From the IMG/VR virus record IMGVR_UViG_3300032298_000149, positions 1-22,864 of that record: a stretch of 22,864 nucleotides of DNA; one strand, written 5' to 3'. This DNA is from a virus. Below the pieces are notes generated by a model. The model had not been told where the DNA came from. It worked only from the letters and a program-made list of their open reading frames with translations, and did not search any database. The position numbers and the translations under genes are program-made. Below, piece by piece: positions 2,960-20,099 of this stretch (position 1 is the first letter of the stretch; each line of letters starts with the position of its first letter).

Positions 2960-3489
2960 CTAGCGGCGCTGCTTTGCCTTATCCATTTCTTGGCGTTCGC
3001 GTTTACCCTTCACCTCATAGTAGGCGGCAAAGTGAATGAACTCTGCATCGGTAAGTTCTTGCCGAAGCCGGCTTACGGTCATGCCTAGCTCAGTAGCTAG
3101 GAACATTTCAAAGTAAAGCCAGCTATCGGCCTCTAGTCGTTTTTTGCTGTCTCCAGTGATTCAGGTGCACCAAGCCCAAACAGGAACAACTCCAGTTCGT
3201 TTAGCACTGATTCCGGCAGCTCGCGTTGCAGCTTGACGGCATCAGCCGCCGCAAATGCTTTAGTGCCATCTTCCAGTTCAGCCATCTGGCATAGCATCTG
3301 CGTGCTGATGTCCAATGCTTCTTCGCTAGAAGCTAGACCAGTAGCACGCTTGCGATCAGCGCGGGTGATTGGCTTGAAATACAACGACAGCACGATGCTG
3401 CCATCTTCTTTCTTGATATTGAACTGGCGACGCTGGTTGAGATCAAAAGCCCCGGCGAGCAGATCAACGGGGCGGATTGTGGCAGGCAT
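2960..3489 (-). CDS. Tail assembly chaperone GT fusion made by -1 frameshift
   Basis: This is the extended product of the tail chaperone gene. Ribosomes read 117 codons of the G frame and slip back one base at A AAA AAC. They then read 59 more codons in the T frame to the TAG at 2960-2962, for 176 aa in all. The T part begins RLEADSWLYFEMF, then ELGMTVSRLRQELTDAEF, then a YYEVKGKRERQ basic end; this is the usual gpT-like pattern (W-x-YF, ELG-TV, L-x-x-EL, AYY). There is no good independent start for the T frame near the slip site, and T ends 24 bases before the tape measure start. In lambda, the G:GT ratio is essential for tail assembly; the fusion binds the tape measure and tail tube subunits and is absent from the virion. 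Confidence 0.88.
3133..3489 (-). CDS. Tail assembly chaperone, short form (gpG-like)
   Basis: This 118-aa protein is the unshifted product of the chaperone gene. It opens with MPATIRPVDLLAGAFDLNQ, has a strand pair around GSIVLSLYFKPITRADRKRA, and ends in a helical part with LQRELPESVLNELELFLFGLG. The last codons, GCA AAA AAC GAC TAG, contain the slippery heptamer directly before the stop. Length, order (tail tube, chaperone, tape measure) and the frameshift site all match lambda gpG-type chaperones. It binds the tape measure protein during tail assembly. Its ATG overlaps the stop of the upstream tail tube gene by one base. Confidence 0.9.
   Translation of the reverse strand: MPATIRPVDLLAGAFDLNQRRQFNIKKEDGSIVLSLYFKPITRADRKRATGLASSEEALDISTQMLCQMAELEDGTKAFAAADAVKLQRELPESVLNELELFLFGLGAPESLETAKND
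3139..3145 (-). other. Programmed -1 ribosomal frameshift site A AAA AAC
   Basis: Read on the minus strand, the end of the gpG-like frame is GCA AAA AAC GAC TAG, which holds the canonical X XXY YYZ heptamer AAAAAAC in the right phase. After a -1 slip the next codon is CGA, and a 59-codon T frame follows that looks like gpT. The heptamer is two codons before the zero-frame stop. I did not find a convincing strong stem-loop right after it, so the heptamer alone may set the efficiency. Confidence 0.88.
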
Positions 3490-3908
3490 TAGATCGATGT
3501 CGTGATGGCGCCATTCATGGTGAAGTTAATCGTCACCATTTCAAGCTCGCCTACTGTAGCACCATAGTCGGTGGAAGTAATCACGATGCTACCGGTGATC
3601 TTTTTGCCGCCGGTTTCATCGAGGTACAACTCAACAAAGGCGTTGCCTTCATCGGTAGTGGTGTTGACATCCTTGATTAGATCCAGCTTATCACCGGCGC
3701 CAGGTGCGTCATACATCACCTCCATGGTGCCGCTACCAGCGACTAGGCCGCCGATATTGGCCTTGTAGGTAGCACCTTGGGCAGTGGTCTCTAGGACGTC
3801 CTTCTCGACGGTCATAGACCAGGATCGTACAGCAGCCACCTCGGAGACGCCGCCGCTGCTGTCTTTGTCGAAAAAGATGGTGCCCTGTTCGCCGCGAAAG
3901 AAGGCCAT
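3489..3908 (-). CDS. Major tail (tube) protein, copy 2 of tandem pair
   Basis: This 139-aa protein is a beta-rich tail-tube-like protein located directly before the tail chaperone, where the tube gene sits in lambda-like phages. It starts MAFFRGEQGTIFF, has the block RSWSMTVEKDVLETTA followed by GATYK, NIGGL and AGSGT (about residues 28-61), and ends with DYGATVGELEMVTINF. The next gene upstream (3911-4327) has the same blocks in the same order, about 60% identical by eye over the whole length, so the two are tandem duplicates. The start ATG follows the upstream stop by two bases (TAACCATGG). Tube proteins stack as hexameric rings around the tape measure. It is not clear whether this copy or the other forms most of the tube. 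Confidence 0.85.
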   Translation of the reverse strand: MAFFRGEQGTIFFDKDSSGGVSEVAAVRSWSMTVEKDVLETTAQGATYKANIGGLVAGSGTMEVMYDAPGAGDKLDLIKDVNTTTDEGNAFVELYLDETGGKKITGSIVITSTDYGATVGELEMVTINFTMNGAITTSI

Positions 3909-3910
3909 GG

Positions 3911-4327
3911 TTAAATACCGAGGGTGATGGTGCCGCTAGTGACGAAGTTGCAGGTAATAACCTCCAACTCGCCTACGGTAGCGCCGTAGTCGGCAGAGGT
4001 AATCAAACCGACAAAGCTAATCTTTTTGGTGCCAGCCGTATCAAGGAACAACTCAAAGGCGGCTACGCCTTGATCGGTTGCTGTGTTAGCAGCCTCGATG
4101 AATACGTTGGTTTCGTCGGAGCTGCTAGCTGTGTAGATCAGTTCAACGGTGCCAGAACCAGCAATCAAACCGCCGATGTTGGATTTATAGGTGGCGCCAA
4201 GCGCGGTGGTTTCCAGTACGTCCTTTTCAACGGTCATGGACCATGAACGAGTGGAGGCAATGGTGGCAGTGGTAGAGCCGGCATCGTCAAACTTGACGGA
4301 ACCTTGCTCACCGCGATAAAAGGCCAT
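3911..4327 (-). CDS. Major tail (tube) protein, copy 1 of tandem pair
   Basis: This 138-aa protein is the upstream member of the duplicated tail-tube pair. It starts MAFYRGEQGSVKF and has RSWSMTVEKDVLETTA, GATYKSNIGGL and AGSGT near residues 27-60, then DYGATVGELEVITCNF near the C-terminus. These blocks are almost the same as in the neighbour, whereas the region between them (about residues 65-100) differs. The codons under identical residues differ in many third positions, so the duplication is old or the copies came from related phages. It lies directly after a gpU-like tail terminator, with the same TAACCATGG junction as the second copy. Confidence 0.85.
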   Translation of the reverse strand: MAFYRGEQGSVKFDDAGSTTATIASTRSWSMTVEKDVLETTALGATYKSNIGGLIAGSGTVELIYTASSSDETNVFIEAANTATDQGVAAFELFLDTAGTKKISFVGLITSADYGATVGELEVITCNFVTSGTITLGI

Positions 4328-5160: not shown

Positions 5161-5517
5161 TCAAGCCCTCAGTACCAGTTCATAGGTAATCGACTGGTTA
5201 TCTTGCTCAATTGTTTGTACGTTAATGATCTGATGCGAAATGGTACTGATGATGACCCGATCAGCGGTGCTAGGCGTAACAGCTAGATCAGTTGCAGCAA
5301 TGAATAGGCGCTTATCACCGGCCTGGATTAGTTCATTTACCTCGCGTGCTTTGATGTCTTGCAATACACCGCGCAAGTTGTAATCAGTTGTTGCTTGCGT
5401 CATTGACCCCGTTTCGGTGTTGTAGAGATCGCTTACAACACGTCTATAGGTCAATGCACCGCCAAACTTGCCCATCAGCTTGGAGGCGGTCTTCTGTAGC
5501 GAGGAAGCTAGTGCCAT
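5161..5517 (-). CDS. Head closure / head-tail joining protein
   Basis: This 118-aa protein has a helical N-terminus (LASSLQKTASKLMGKFG) and then a series of predicted strands: ALTYRRVVSDLYN, YNLRGVLQDIK, DKRLFIAATDL, ADRVIISTISHQIINVQTIE and SITYELVLRA. This layout, with an SH3-like barrel after a short helix, is seen in phage stopper or gpFII-like head-tail joining proteins. It sits between the connector adaptor side and the gpZ-like gene, as expected. The assignment depends on position and fold pattern, since no residue motif is unique to the group. Confidence 0.65.
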   Translation of the reverse strand: MALASSLQKTASKLMGKFGGALTYRRVVSDLYNTETGSMTQATTDYNLRGVLQDIKAREVNELIQAGDKRLFIAATDLAVTPSTADRVIISTISHQIINVQTIEQDNQSITYELVLRA

Positions 5518-15526: not shown

Positions 15527-15883
15527 TCAGAGTTTACTGATTGCCACGATACCTTCCTCGACATCGACTTCAACGGCGAATTTATCGCCGGGTGCTAGGC
15601 CAAGCTGACTGGTGTAACCACCGGATAGGATGGCATTACCGTTTTTCTGGATGGTGCCTTCATAGGAGAGAGCACGGCCAGATTTCGGTGCTTTGACGAC
15701 TTTAAGGCCATAGGCCTCAAGAAGTCCAGAACGCAGTGCGGCAATTTTTGGTTTGCCTTCTGCGGTGACGTACCCGGTTGCTGCTGCCAGTTCGGGTTCA
15801 GATACTTCGCCAAGGATTTTGACTTGTGCGAGCAGTTCGGAGCCTGTGAGTGCCATGTATGTGGTTGTGACCGTTGGAATCAT
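15527..15883 (-). CDS. Cyanobacterial AbrB-like transcription regulator (cyAbrB)
   Basis: From the internal ATG at 15856 the product starts MALTGSELLAQVKILGEVSE, the near-universal start of cyanobacterial AbrB proteins (MALTG-x-LL-KVKELG). It continues with ATGYVTAEGKPKIAALRSGLLEAYGLKV, matching the family's GYV(S/T) and LLEAKG parts. The C-terminal half, ALSYEGTIQKNGNAILSGGY and LGLAPGDKFAVEV, is the swapped-hairpin AbrB DNA-binding domain, which in cyAbrB is at the C-terminus. In host cells cyAbrB proteins regulate nitrogen and carbon genes. The outer ATG at 15883 overlaps the clamp stop (ATGA) and would add nine residues; either start is possible. A terminator follows the gene. Confidence 0.86.
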   Translation of the reverse strand: MIPTVTTTYMALTGSELLAQVKILGEVSEPELAAATGYVTAEGKPKIAALRSGLLEAYGLKVVKAPKSGRALSYEGTIQKNGNAILSGGYTSQLGLAPGDKFAVEVDVEEGIVAISKL

Positions 15884-16941
15884 ACACGAACCTGCACGGG
15901 CATGACAAGGTAAAGCTGACCGTCAATACCTACTGGCGACATGATGACAGGTGTGGTTGACGTGTTGGCTTGCATTTGAACCTTGGCACCATCAAAGTGC
16001 TTGAGGCCATCGACCAGGTAACGGACATTGAAGGCGGTATCAGGAAATGAACCGGAGCAGGTAAGTTTTTCAGCACCGCTGCTGGCTTCAGAATCCGCAA
16101 CGATCGATAGGGTTTTGTTTTTGACCGAAAGCCTTACCACATCGGAGTTAATGATGGCAATACGTTCTAGGGCTGCGATCAGGGCGATGCGATCAGCGGT
16201 GATGGTGTGCTTGAAGGTTTCAGGCACCAACTTTGCTACGGCGGGGTAGGCGCCTGCGAGTGTGCGGGAGGTGATGGTGACGCCATCGGCAATGATGATC
16301 GCTTGGCTGCTGGATGCGGCAAGCGTTACCTCCAGGCTGTCTAGGCGCTGGATAGCGGAGATGCTACGTGTCGGCAGGATGATGTCAATGACACCATCGG
16401 CTGGCTGGGTGCGGGTGACCATGCGATGACCATCGGTTGCCTCGATGCGCATGGTGCCGGTCTCTATGGCGACGTGTAGGCCGCAGATGACGCCTTTGGA
16501 CTCATCGGTGGCAGCAGCAGCCAAAGCCGCACGCATGGGCTCCACAAGGGCCACGGAGACGGCTCCAGCAGTATCGACGACCGGAAGGGCGGGGAAGTCG
16601 TCTGCATCGTGTCCAGCGAGCTGGTAGGAGCCTGTAGCGCTCGACAAGCTGACGGCAGTGCCATCGGCGGTAAGGAGCAAGGCGGCATCACTGTCTAGGC
16701 GTCCGACGATCTCAGATAGGACGCGGTATGGGACGGCGATAGAGCCTGCGGTTTCAACTGAGGCAAGGATTGTGGTTGAGATGCCAAGTTCAAGATCAAA
16801 TGCCGAAACGCGCAGGTGGCCGTCGGCCATGGCATCGATCAGGACATTGGCGAGAATCGGATGGGTCTTGCCGTTGGAGACAGCGCGACCGACGACCTTA
16901 AGCGCGTGGTTGAGGTCGGACTGAGCGGTAATAAATTTCAT
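15880..16941 (-). CDS. dnaN: DNA polymerase III sliding clamp (beta subunit)
   Basis: This 353-aa protein has the three-domain beta clamp pattern: MKFITAQSDLNHALKVVGRAVS (domain 1), GSYQLAGHDADDFPALP near 105-121 and VKVxx LATDGHRM-type EATDGHRMVTR in domain 2, and NVRYLVDGLKHFDG then MQANTSTTPVIMSPVG in domain 3, ending in LYLVMPVQV. The opening resembles cyanobacterial DnaN by eye (THPILANVLIDA). The usual length is 365-390 aa, so it is slightly short but complete. It would tether a polymerase to DNA during phage replication; no polymerase gene is in the window, so host Pol III is the likely partner. The stop overlaps the cyAbrB start. Confidence 0.93.
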   Translation of the reverse strand: MKFITAQSDLNHALKVVGRAVSNGKTHPILANVLIDAMADGHLRVSAFDLELGISTTILASVETAGSIAVPYRVLSEIVGRLDSDAALLLTADGTAVSLSSATGSYQLAGHDADDFPALPVVDTAGAVSVALVEPMRAALAAAATDESKGVICGLHVAIETGTMRIEATDGHRMVTRTQPADGVIDIILPTRSISAIQRLDSLEVTLAASSSQAIIIADGVTITSRTLAGAYPAVAKLVPETFKHTITADRIALIAALERIAIINSDVVRLSVKNKTLSIVADSEASSGAEKLTCSGSFPDTAFNVRYLVDGLKHFDGAKVQMQANTSTTPVIMSPVGIDGQLYLVMPVQVRV

Positions 16942-17147
16942 GATGCGGCTTCGGTTAGGGCGGTGATGATGGCGCTGTAATCGGCGTCGAAGCTGGCGAC
17001 CAGTTCGGCGGGAATGGGGATGCCTTCGTCTTGTGCGTTATCGCGGATTGCGTTGGCGGTTGCCAGCGCCAAGGTCATGGCGTCATGAAGACGGTTGATG
17101 ACGGGCGACTGCCTGGCTGTGATGCGAATCAAGTCTGGTGATGACAT
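16938..17147 (-). CDS. Unknown small protein, 69 aa (or 46 aa)
   Basis: The 69-aa ORF starts at ATG 17147, which is 62 bases inside the end of the RHH gene in another frame. An inner ATG at 17078, five bases after the RHH stop, would give a 46-aa protein with no overlap. The helical product (TLALATANAIRDNAQDEG and ELVASFDADYSAIITALTEAA) has no recognised family. It overlaps the DnaN start by four bases (ATGA), which supports its being translated. I give the long version; the short one is at least as likely. Confidence 0.5.
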   Translation of the reverse strand: MSSPDLIRITARQSPVINRLHDAMTLALATANAIRDNAQDEGIPIPAELVASFDADYSAIITALTEAAS

Positions 17148-17379
17148 ACGCGGTTAATAACTCAACATGCTGCCTCGGGACAACACCACCCATAAAGGCA
17201 GCGGCATCAGAGACCAACGCATGGTATGCGCTTGGCGTCAGCCCATAAAGCCCCTGTTCATAATCCGCAACAATTGCCCGCTGCCGGATCAATGCCGAGC
17301 GGTTGGTGCCTGCCGCTGCCGCCTGCCGGTCGATCAGGTCCAGATCGGACGGCTGGAAACGGACTTTGACTTCCTGCAT
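17083..17379 (-). CDS. Ribbon-helix-helix (Arc/CopG-type) regulator
   Basis: This 98-aa protein has an N-terminal ribbon-helix-helix at about residues 3-35: the strand EVKVRFQPSDLDLIDRQAAA followed by the turn AGTNRSALIRQRA. The remaining part is helical and ends in a basic, His/Ser tail. RHH proteins bind short repeated or inverted sites as dimers. Directly upstream of its ATG (at 17379) lies an array of TGTTACG heptamers, with the first copy six bases from the start, so it probably regulates itself. The last 65 bases overlap the next ORF in another frame unless that ORF uses its inner start. Confidence 0.8.
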   Translation of the reverse strand: MQEVKVRFQPSDLDLIDRQAAAAGTNRSALIRQRAIVADYEQGLYGLTPSAYHALVSDAAAFMGGVVPRQHVELLTAYVITRLDSHHSQAVARHQPSS

Positions 17380-17403
17380 GGGCCTGTTACGCCTGTTACG
17401 GTG

Positions 17404-17424
17404 GTGTTACGCCTACCGTAACAC
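17404..17424. promoter_or_regulatory. Perfect inverted repeat upstream of the RHH gene (candidate operator)
   Basis: GTGTTACG and CGTAACAC form perfect 8-bp arms around a 5-bp spacer (CCTAC), about 25-45 bases upstream of the RHH start. Two more heptamers (17385 and 17394) sit between this repeat and the start. The site would suit a dimeric regulator such as the adjacent RHH protein. Confidence 0.6.
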
Positions 17425-17620
17425 GCAGATCGCCCGCCAGTACAGGGGTTTGGTGCCCTCTGTTACGTTGTTACGCTTTTTTAGGTATATAGATAGATAG
17501 AGGGGTTTTTCAGGGGTCTGTCCTCCCTCTCTCTTAGTAAGGGGGGCTCTTGCCGGAAAGCGTAACAAGCGTAACAAACGTAACAACCCAGTCACTGACA
17601 GGGTTTTTACCGTAACAGAT

Positions 17621-17640
17621 GGCGTAACAAGTGTTACGCC
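17621..17640. promoter_or_regulatory. Perfect inverted repeat at the end of the primase gene (candidate operator)
   Basis: GGCGTAACA and TGTTACGCC form perfect 9-bp arms with a 2-bp centre. It spans the primase stop codon (17634-17636). On the minus strand no T run follows, so it is not a normal terminator. It fits the same heptamer family as the upstream array, so it is likely part of that system. Confidence 0.6.
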
Positions 17641-20099
17641 TCAAGTGGGAGCGTTACGGCGCGGCAGGTGCCTGCCATGCCCTTAAACCGTGTCACACCA
17701 GCGCGTGTGGCGCCTGGAAGCCGTGCGAGCACCGTTGACCAGCACGTAACCCATGGCGTATCGCGCAGGATGGCTGCGATGGCTGTGGCGTTGTTGGCGA
17801 CGTAGATCAGGTCACCATCAGCTTTGATGCCGTTACGCCCGATGGTGGCCTGCGCGAGGGTAGGCGTAACGTCGATGTCATGGGAGCGGCTTGCTGAAAT
17901 TTGTATCAATTCACCGATAGTCCTGGTGACTGTTTTATCACCTTCGACGCGCATTTGATGCTCCAGTATGTACTGTAAGCAACGCTTTTCATCCGGTATT
18001 TCTGTTGACTGGCTGTAAGGGTCCCAGTTAATTTTATTTACAACATCCCTAGCTTGCTCGGCAGTTGGTATCTCTTTGGACTGCATAGACCATGCACCGG
18101 CTAATAATGTACCGTATTGATCGCCAAGGCGTTGGCTATCAAATGCCTCTGCTGCTATACGTGTAAAAATACGAGTGCTAGCGCGTATTACTGGAATAAG
18201 CGATATTGTACGAGCCTGCAAACGACGGCCAATTTCTGTAGTAATGAGTCGATCAAGATCACGCTCTAATTTCTCCCAATGCGCGATACGAGTTTCCTTT
18301 GCGATTTCATTTGGATTACGCAAAGTAAGCTGAGCAAAGCGTGATTTATCAGCACCTTGTTTCAAGGCAGTTGCAATACTTGACATCAAAAACATCGACC
18401 GTATGGTATAACGTTGCGTATCACCTTCGGGGCTTCCTTTTAATGTATGCGCTTTGGATTCAGAGCTTGCAACACGCGCTAGGCCAAGAACTGCTTGCAT
18501 ACGTTGCTGGTCCGAGCGTTCATTTGATTCGGCTTCATCAAATACAACCGGCAACGCATCAGCGCGTAATGCTTGGCGGATACCTGGTTCTGTGGTATTA
18601 CCACTGACTATGAGACCCATGTCACCAAGCAATGGGCCGACATATTTTTCTAAGACTGCGGATTTACCGGAACCTGCACCTGCGGTAAGCCATGCGTGCG
18701 GGCGCCATGTAAGTGCTCCACATATTGGCGCAAGTGCAACCCAGCCGGCCAGTAGGGAGCCGGAGCCTTCAGCTTCCCAGTGGAAACGCTCTGCTAGCTC
18801 AAGAAGTGCCCATGACTCTTGATCTGTTAATGGTTCAACGTCGGTTGGACCCTTGAGGCTTACCAAACGCTGATAGATGTATAAGCTACTTGGTACTGCT
18901 GTTGTGGTGGGCTGTGAGGTGCCATCAACAATAAGGCGATCACCTAGGTGCAGGACAGTACGCTTATTGTCCCACCATGCACCGCGTCCACGTATGCGAT
19001 CAGGGCTGTAGACACCTACTGCGGCCTGCTGCGTAAAGAGGCTAGCTGCTGCTGCGGTCCAGTTGACGCCTGTTTTGGAGGTATAAAGAGTCTCCCAGTA
19101 GCTAAGTGGTGCAAGAGCAACTAAATTGGTTCCCGTATGGCTGCTGCGTGATAGGCGTGTTACCTGCCCCGTGCTACTGGGTTGGTAGTAGTAGGAGTCA
19201 TTATCAAAACCAAGACATATGAAATGTGCGCCAGCCGACGGCAATGGCGGTGGATCCAATACTGGTACTTCGACTGGTACTGGCGTCGCCGCCGGCAACG
19301 TAATTGGCGCTGAGCGGTTTGCCTTGAGATATTCAGCGGCTTCTGATGGCGTCCATGTTGCATCAGCTAGATCCCAGCCATCCGGTGCATCAGGCGGTGG
19401 AGTGACGATACGAACAAGTTCAGCACCTGCGGCAAGTAGACGCGGCGCTAGCTTTGCCATTGCTTCACGGCCTGGATCATCAGCATCAGGCCATAGGATC
19501 GCCTTGCGACCTGCTATGGGCGACCAATCAGCCTTGTCGATGGCTTTACAACCACTGGGCCATGTGATGCAAGCAACCTGCGGAAATAATGCTTGCGCTG
19601 CATCTGTTGCCTTTTCGCCTTCGCAGATCAGTACAGGGCCTGCGGTATCTGGACGCGCCCAATAAAGAGGACGCGGTGCAGGCGGTGCCTTCCATTTCCA
19701 GCCTGCACCATCAAACCAGAGCGGGCGAATCTTTTTACCAGGAAAGCGGCAAACAAAAAAGGTATTACTGTAACGCCATACATGCTCAGCGCCTGCGGTA
19801 GGCGGTTCCGGGATGATGCCTAGATGCTGCTCAATGCGTGTTGCGGCTTCGGCATAGGACCAATCCATCTTGCGCATGAGCATATCCATTCCGCTGCCGG
19901 CACCGCCGGACTGGTTTTTGCCACCGCAACGATTACAAAACCAGGAGCCGGTGCCGTCTTTGTCGTCAAAGCGATAGCGATCGGTACCACCGCATAGCGG
20001 GCACGGCTGATGCTTGTCGGTTAACTGCTCTGGCGTAAGGCCAGCAAGTTGCGCCAGCAGGTCAGGCCACCTGCCGTTAGCGAGGTCTGATATAGTCAT
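17634..20099 (-). CDS. Primase-helicase (zinc finger, TOPRIM, DUF927-like ATPase)
   Basis: This 821-aa replication protein has an N-terminal zinc-binding motif with Cys33, Cys36, Cys55 and Cys58 (CPLCGG, then WFCNRCG), as in phage primases. A TOPRIM primase domain follows: VLICEGEKATDAA (Glu160) and AILWPDADDPG (Asp205, 207 and 208). Residues of about 290-420 hold a DUF927-like part (WETLYTSKTGVNWTAAAASL, WWDNKR-TVLHLGDRLI). The ATPase has Walker A TAGAGSGKS (about 472-480) and Walker B ALPVVFDEAE (about 515-524). The C-terminal 200 residues include a region (TRTIGELIQISASR) that may bind DNA. It would prime and unwind phage DNA. The ATG overlaps the stop of the 47-aa RHH gene (ATGA). Confidence 0.9.
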   Translation of the reverse strand: MTISDLANGRWPDLLAQLAGLTPEQLTDKHQPCPLCGGTDRYRFDDKDGTGSWFCNRCGGKNQSGGAGSGMDMLMRKMDWSYAEAATRIEQHLGIIPEPPTAGAEHVWRYSNTFFVCRFPGKKIRPLWFDGAGWKWKAPPAPRPLYWARPDTAGPVLICEGEKATDAAQALFPQVACITWPSGCKAIDKADWSPIAGRKAILWPDADDPGREAMAKLAPRLLAAGAELVRIVTPPPDAPDGWDLADATWTPSEAAEYLKANRSAPITLPAATPVPVEVPVLDPPPLPSAGAHFICLGFDNDSYYYQPSSTGQVTRLSRSSHTGTNLVALAPLSYWETLYTSKTGVNWTAAAASLFTQQAAVGVYSPDRIRGRGAWWDNKRTVLHLGDRLIVDGTSQPTTTAVPSSLYIYQRLVSLKGPTDVEPLTDQESWALLELAERFHWEAEGSGSLLAGWVALAPICGALTWRPHAWLTAGAGSGKSAVLEKYVGPLLGDMGLIVSGNTTEPGIRQALRADALPVVFDEAESNERSDQQRMQAVLGLARVASSESKAHTLKGSPEGDTQRYTIRSMFLMSSIATALKQGADKSRFAQLTLRNPNEIAKETRIAHWEKLERDLDRLITTEIGRRLQARTISLIPVIRASTRIFTRIAAEAFDSQRLGDQYGTLLAGAWSMQSKEIPTAEQARDVVNKINWDPYSQSTEIPDEKRCLQYILEHQMRVEGDKTVTRTIGELIQISASRSHDIDVTPTLAQATIGRNGIKADGDLIYVANNATAIAAILRDTPWVTCWSTVLARLPGATRAGVTRFKGMAGTCRAVTLPLEA

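Follow-up and report, generated by a model that had tools for sequence, protein, structure and literature searches.

A heptamer array directly 3' of a phage primase-helicase gene: a probable replication origin whose repeat covaries with the C-terminal domain of the enzyme

The window analyzed here is the whole of virus record IMGVR_UViG_3300032298_000149, 22,864 bases long and possibly incomplete, for which the closest named relative is Synechococcus phage S-H1 (65% primase identity). The gap between the stop codon of a primase-helicase gene (17634-20099, minus strand) and the start of the RHH1 gene (17083-17379, minus strand) is filled by an array of the heptamer TGTTACG (Table 1). Beyond RHH1 come a small gene, a sliding-clamp gene, an AbrB-like gene and a terminase gene. 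The gene set is that of a full phage, with this terminase in the window and, in the annotation of S-H1, terminase, coat and tail genes.

Table 1. Coordinates of the array, its blocks and the adjoining genes in the window.
Feature	Position	Strand	Details or basis
RHH1, 98 aa	17083..17379	-	Adjoins array; outside swapped cassette
Candidate iteron block D	17385..17423		TGTTACG at 17385+, 17394+, 17405+, 17417-; sequence count
Candidate iteron block C	17461..17475	+	Two tandem TGTTACG, 8-nt pitch
Spacer between iteron sets, proposed melting region	17476..17560		Sequence, AT content
Candidate iteron block B	17561..17585	-	Three copies in tandem at 9-nt pitch
Imperfect palindrome AACCC...GGGTT between blocks B and A	17585..17605		Also in several relatives
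Candidate iteron block A	17611..17638		17611-, 17623-, 17632+; last overlaps primase stop codon
Primase-helicase P0001, 821 aa, proposed initiator	17634..20099	-	Pfam, PHROG, hhalign, model
C-terminal winged-helix-like domain (residues 690-821), proposed iteron reader	17637..18032	-	AlphaFold2
Codons V802, T803, R804 (x1, x2, x3), end of first wing strand	17688..17696	-	Proposed specificity residues

TGTTACG occurs 13 times on the two strands of the record (mean of 2.3 and maximum of 7 in 100 shuffles), with 12 exact copies, six per strand, at 17385-17638 and the 13th isolated at 5275. This bears out the count of 12 heptamers in 254 bp, six per orientation, given in a preliminary description of this DNA, as well as its estimate of about 0.03 copies by chance, the expectation from the base composition of the 254 bp being 0.031. 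There is no comparable density elsewhere in the record, and any 260-nt stretch of the window outside the array held at most three copies at up to one mismatch. The RHH-side copies (starts 17385, 17394, 17405, 17417, 17461 and 17469; 5/6 on the plus strand) and the primase-side copies (starts 17561, 17570, 17579, 17611, 17623 and 17632; 5/6 on the minus strand) face opposite ways, as had been described, and the 12 starts are spaced by 9, 11, 12, 44, 8, 92, 9, 9, 32, 12 and 9 nt. A single heptamer (17632-17638) overlaps the primase stop codon, the rest of the array lying 3' of the gene. At the far end, block D comes to within 5 bp of the RHH1 start codon and includes an inverted pair (17405+ and 17417-, 5-nt spacer) that is also found in relatives.

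The AT-rich middle of the preliminary description was recovered in part. AT content in 60-nt windows was 62% and 58% for those starting at 17450 and 17480, against 32-50% for most others between 17300 and 17750, a modest enrichment of 62% at best; the spacer is AT-rich near 17476-17510, and the rest of it is a purine/pyrimidine-biased tract. Mean folding z reached -1.3 only at the inverted heptamer pair of block D and -1.0 at the primase stop, and the palindrome between blocks B and A gave a weak signal (about -0.3 to -0.7). In some relatives (e.g. L042, L059 and L106) this palindrome is replaced by other palindromes. Conserved hairpins as a structural element made a weak candidate, single palindromes being inconsistent among relatives. 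Neither the window nor the portion of S-H1 covered (37,668 of 39,158 nt) showed a second heptamer cluster; in S-H1, 17 exact sites were counted, nine clustered after or at the primase stop and eight scattered. Cumulative GC skew, suggested earlier as a locator of the origin, did not serve as one, with no extremum or turning point at the array in either S-H1 or the window.

The primase-helicase comprises a zinc ribbon and TOPRIM-like N half, an AAA+ initiator helicase and a C-terminal putative origin-binding domain, and matched Pfam Zn_Ribbon_Prim (3.6e-15) and PHROG 35358, DNA primase (3.4e-134). An hhalign comparison of A1 with P4 alpha gave 99.5% over the N half. For a model of residues 291-821, the top Foldseek match was SCCmec Cch (5dgk_B, 2.4e-8), with a VIA Z of 14.5 over 414 aligned residues at an rmsd of 8.3; the SaPI5 primase-helicase and SaPIbov1 Rep (7ola, 8tch) were also matched, and many MCM helicases scored nearly as high over the helicase part. 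AlphaFold2 predicted a winged-helix-like fold for the C-terminal 132 residues (pLDDT 91, pTM 0.81), in which residues 802-804 close the first strand of the wing. Taken in isolation, this domain gave weak VIA matches (all Z < 5), mostly to DNA-binding domains and including, both weakly, the C-terminal domains of SaPIbov1 Rep (8tch_A, Z 4.6) and Cch (5dgk_B, Z 3.7), and no Foldseek match at 1e-3. The C-terminus of P4 alpha gave no sequence match to the domain (hhalign probability 0.3), and PDB sequence searches with the domain, the whole protein and A1 returned nothing relevant.

The analysis was extended to viral loci with primase relatives (80 of 103 matches fetched, all scanned), and the set was widened by named phages, further viral contigs and bacterial genomes. 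At ≤93% identity, 123 representatives were kept, two of which were dropped for too little downstream DNA. A repeated heptamer above the best of its own 20 shuffles was present in 81 of the remaining 121. Under a stricter array cut, 74 passed and 47 failed downstream of the primase. Seven of the 74 (L173, L186, L195, L218, L219, L233 and L275) did not align with the family motif and were excluded, leaving 67.

In most relatives the array lies at the same place 3' of the primase and the repeated heptamer differs by group, all sites having switched together (CCTAACG, CCTCACG, TCTTACG, TCTGACG, TGTCCCG, TGTTCCG and TGTAACG). Read in the sense of the primase, the common layout starts with block A at the primase stop and continues with two or three tandem sites at 8-9 nt pitch (block B). 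After a gap of mostly 80-125 nt start to start, which contains AT-rich as well as pyrimidine tracts, come two sites in the opposite orientation, again at 8-9 nt pitch (block C), and then block D, in which an inverted pair is accompanied by additional sites. Position and layout are kept from cyanophages to Bdellovibrio phage phi1422, where the heptamer is TGTTACC. In locus L044, a long CT microsatellite stands in place of the pyrimidine tract, roughly 100-150 nt after the primase stop.

Matches to the origin-binding domain were found in 29 of 299 genomes of the picocyanobacterial order (1e-3) and in 2 of 399 and 1 of 394 genomes of two other orders (1e-8, centre genomes included). Two picocyanobacterial genomes, G001 and G111, hold four and five such matches, respectively, in one host genome. 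Further viral scans gave no matches for L092, L205 and L227, and for L096 only its own record.

With the motif frames of the 74 arrays aligned without protein data, the residue aligned to R804 (x3) was found to predict heptamer position 2 in the 67 non-redundant arrays. Specifically, x3 was R or K with G2 in 52/52 arrays and H or Y with C2 in 8/8, and W with C2 in 7/7, the orientation of the W arrays being taken from the tandem block where the frame alone is ambiguous and that of L268, and partly of L205, not being independently fixed. Relative mutual information with position 2 was 0.94 for column 804 and 0.44 for the next column. Lys at residue 802 (x1) went with C5 in 9/9 arrays, C5 occurring among the other 58 only in L241; for position 5, column 802 ranked top (0.76), with column 772 close (0.70). 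Position 4 had no clean column, the best being 802 and 809-811 at only 0.25-0.29. In L316 compared with L317 and L319, the wing is the same (VVH) and the word differs (ATCCAAC vs ATCTAAC), so that position 3 has changed with 802-804 unchanged.

The association holds over repeated changes in a tree from which the C-terminal 75 residues were left out. Of its 132 branches, 10 carry a change at position 2, and these are also the 10 on which residue 804 changed; after pruning of the W rows, all eight switches of the two still coincided (118 branches). Lys802 changed six times, every time on a branch where C5 also changed (seven C5 changes in all). A held-out set of 56 more loci, from one further viral scan and from genomes, included 22 not near-identical to earlier loci, of which 13 were scored, eight had no usable array and one, the W locus L309, was left out of the score. 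In the scored loci, R went with G2 in 7/7 and H or Y with C2 in 6/6, a total of 13/13 that by our reading stands for roughly seven lineages and not for 13 independent events. C5 without Lys802 was seen in the held-out loci L278, L279, L296, L306 and L324, in addition to L241. Among the arrays set aside, L173 and L218 combine R with a tandem block reading TGT and would be consistent, and L233 (R with CATGACC) would not; L233 is a possible exception at x3 along with L226 and L239 (W with CATTACA), of which L226 falls under the array cut and L239 is its near-duplicate. Neither the position of the array nor the residue-base code is universal, as these exceptions indicate together with the many proteobacterial relatives that have no downstream array (e.g. 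L088-L091 and L093) and the upstream cluster of Acinetobacter phage Acjo_20 (L094), in which eight copies of TGTAACA lie at 951-1450, upstream and not downstream of the primase (start 1571).

Closer comparison of related pairs points to two modes of switching, in place or by exchange of a cassette made up of domain and origin. Between L270 (wing PTR) and L262 (PTH), position 2 changed in 11 of 13 sites, 10 of them from G to C, with five other in-site substitutions and differences in 51 of 296 columns outside the sites, the origins being otherwise similar. Between L022 (AVW) and L041 (SIW), position 4 changed in 12/12 sites with one other in-site substitution. Hypergeometric probabilities were 6e-9 and 1e-13, respectively, and the five control pairs, in which the wing class is constant, showed 0 to 12 in-site substitutions scattered over positions. 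The second mode is illustrated by L042 and L043, whose flanks are mostly about 91% identical. Per 100-nt bin, identity falls to 39-74% in a block that begins within the primase gene near -300 and ends where the array does, near +300, and it is back at the RHH start codon. Similarly, L253 and L265 share 96-99% identity from -1200 to -400, dropping to 60-66% between -400 and the stop and to 54% immediately beyond, and the genes differ further downstream. As the reader domain adjoins its sites, both can move as one cassette.

On this basis, the array is very probably the replication origin of the phage, with the heptamers as iterons read by the C-terminal winged-helix domain of the primase-helicase; the binding, melting and origin activity are what we infer. 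The observations in support are the conserved position and layout, the concerted change of the heptamers, the covariation over many switches, the modes of switching and the dissociation from RHH genes. An iteron-type phage origin, one of the roles offered in the preliminary description, is thus the best-supported reading in view of layout and residue-base covariation. In the mechanism proposed, copies of the primase-helicase would bind the twelve heptamers via the C-terminal winged-helix domain, residues 802-804 of the wing reading the heptamer bases, and would assemble on the two iteron sets flanking the AT-rich gap. The bound protein would then melt this gap, where the fused helicase-primase would be loaded.

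Several elements of this arrangement have precedents. SaPI and PICI Rep and SCCmec Cch/Cch2 are likewise initiator helicases with a C-terminal putative origin-recognition domain, the AAA+ helicase is of a Cch/SaPI-Rep-like type, Cch having been the top match over the helicase and C-terminal region, and in SaPI/PICI elements the array likewise lies immediately 3' of the initiator gene in two sets flanking an AT-rich stretch. The SaPI origin is reportedly the subject of papers by Ubeda and colleagues. According to PMC7581432, the repeats directly downstream of the gene are recognized by the C-terminal domain in SaPI Rep and Cch2, and PMC6092414 describes PICI origins as two iteron sets with an AT-rich stretch between them, placed directly 3' of rep. 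Unlike these elements, the viruses examined here are full phages with terminase and structural genes, so that the system would work like a SaPI/PICI-type replicon but is not a PICI; the helicase is, in addition, fused to a zinc-ribbon/TOPRIM primase half, and the 7-bp sites, the four-block layout and the residue-level recognition pattern also differ. According to PMC8263062, the origin and the DNA-binding domain of the initiator RepA of PLE covary and swap as a module, and PLE origins are reported to diversify under the origin-directed nuclease Odn. Origin and reader domain thus vary and swap together in both cases, whereas PLE has a RepA_N initiator, three ~30-bp iterons and two origin groups in place of serial base switches (PMC8263062). 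As proposed here for the primase-helicase, lambda O is a phage initiator that reads iterons at ori. Lambda-type iterons, however, are located inside a replication gene (PMC11447400), whereas the present array is 3' of the gene with only one copy overlapping the stop codon.

The comparison with P4 bears on the main alternative. P4 alpha shares the zinc-ribbon and TOPRIM primase half (N half homologous by hhalign), and P4 also has a short-repeat cluster in both orientations, crr, directly 3' of the alpha gene; the structure of a domain of P4 alpha has been solved. It is conceivable, but improbable, that the primase-helicase domain binds the array and that the array has a regulatory or copy-control function like that of crr, or is an operator of the primase/RHH operon, with the origin elsewhere. 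The ten type-1 repeats of crr and the annotated P4 origin about 4.5 kb away would fit such a role, as would the lack of a GC-skew turning point at the array and the short distance from block D to the RHH1 start codon. However, crr and ori are separate in P4, whereas only one cluster was found here in the window and in the part of S-H1 covered, and the two sets with an AT-rich gap between them match the layout described for PICI origins in PMC6092414. The P4 sites are octamers, and no similarity was detected between the C-terminal sequences.

An operator array for an RHH1 repressor in the style of omega/CopG, the other role raised in the preliminary description, is very unlikely and was rejected, both on the distribution of RHH1 and on the swap between L042 and L043. 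The heptads of omega are an example of an RHH operator, and the present array adjoins RHH1 and has heptad-like tandem and inverted copies; RHH1 also gave weak profile matches, NikA-like (1.6e-5) and RHH_1 (5.9e-4), both just below the curated cut-off. The idea nevertheless fails because, among the 61 kept arrays with ≥900 nt of downstream DNA, an RHH1 homologue follows only 13 and is lacking from 48. In addition, the block that L042 and L043 have exchanged stops short of RHH1, whose N-terminal part is the same in both (MPEIKINVTADDLARLNAEAAAHGIPRAHLIRQRAL) although the arrays are TGTTACG and TCTGACG. The RHH strand KVRF was found with TGTTACG, CCTAACG and TCTTACG, and TGTTACG with three strands. 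The heptad sequence thus does not follow the DNA-reading strand of RHH and tracks the end of the primase-helicase. These sequence comparisons indicate that RHH1 is not the heptamer reader across the family, although the array region may regulate it or be shared by it. Many relatives (L009, L010, L022, L049 and others) have a second, shorter RHH gene immediately ahead of the primase, for which no counterpart was found in the window. That the array is a centromere for partition or a host-factor site, unrelated to the primase, is most improbable, even though iteron clusters can serve as centromeres too, given that at the inferred switches the heptamer goes with residues 802 and 804 of the primase and that heptamer and primase tail change together in close relatives, which disfavors a host factor.

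Going beyond the origin itself, the wing may represent a small amino-acid-to-base origin code (804: R/K for G2 and H/Y/W for C2; 802: K for C5), in which a change of one or two residues with rewriting of a dozen sites, or the exchange of a cassette, would repeatedly give origins that the initiators of relatives could not read, driven by origin conflict. We put this forward as possible and with some reserve. If true, the conflict could be with co-infecting relatives, satellites or origin-directed nucleases. A strict incompatibility was not supported, as three of the four domain loci co-resident in G001 (Synechococcus HJ21-Hayes), L177, L179 and L208, have the wing PVR and TGTAACG in common; elements sharing one code in this way speak against strict incompatibility as the driver of switching.

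Self-loading helicases whose C-terminal domain reads the origin are already known from satellites and SCC elements. Here a probable arrangement of this type is found in full cyanobacterial phages, with variants enough to tie individual residues to individual bases. The full-text literature searched, a scope that leaves most subscription papers outside, gave no account of a code of this kind or of origins resembling those of PICIs in cyanophages. As natural variants link residue to base, origin specificity would become predictable from sequence and open to direct test. The family also shows a multi-site DNA target and its reader changing together, a hard step for any iteron system, and it offers a test of whether phages diversify their origins to evade rivals or origin-targeting nucleases.

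Two other features of the window are worth recording. The phage has its own DNA polymerase III beta sliding clamp (15880-16941, minus strand), shortly downstream of RHH1, with three beta domains (Pfam E 1e-12 to 2e-20) and the same gene order in S-H1. Among the structural genes there is a tandem duplication, with paralogues at 3489-3908 and 3911-4327 (minus strand) that have the motif RSWSMTVEKDVLETTA.GATYK.NIGGL in common.
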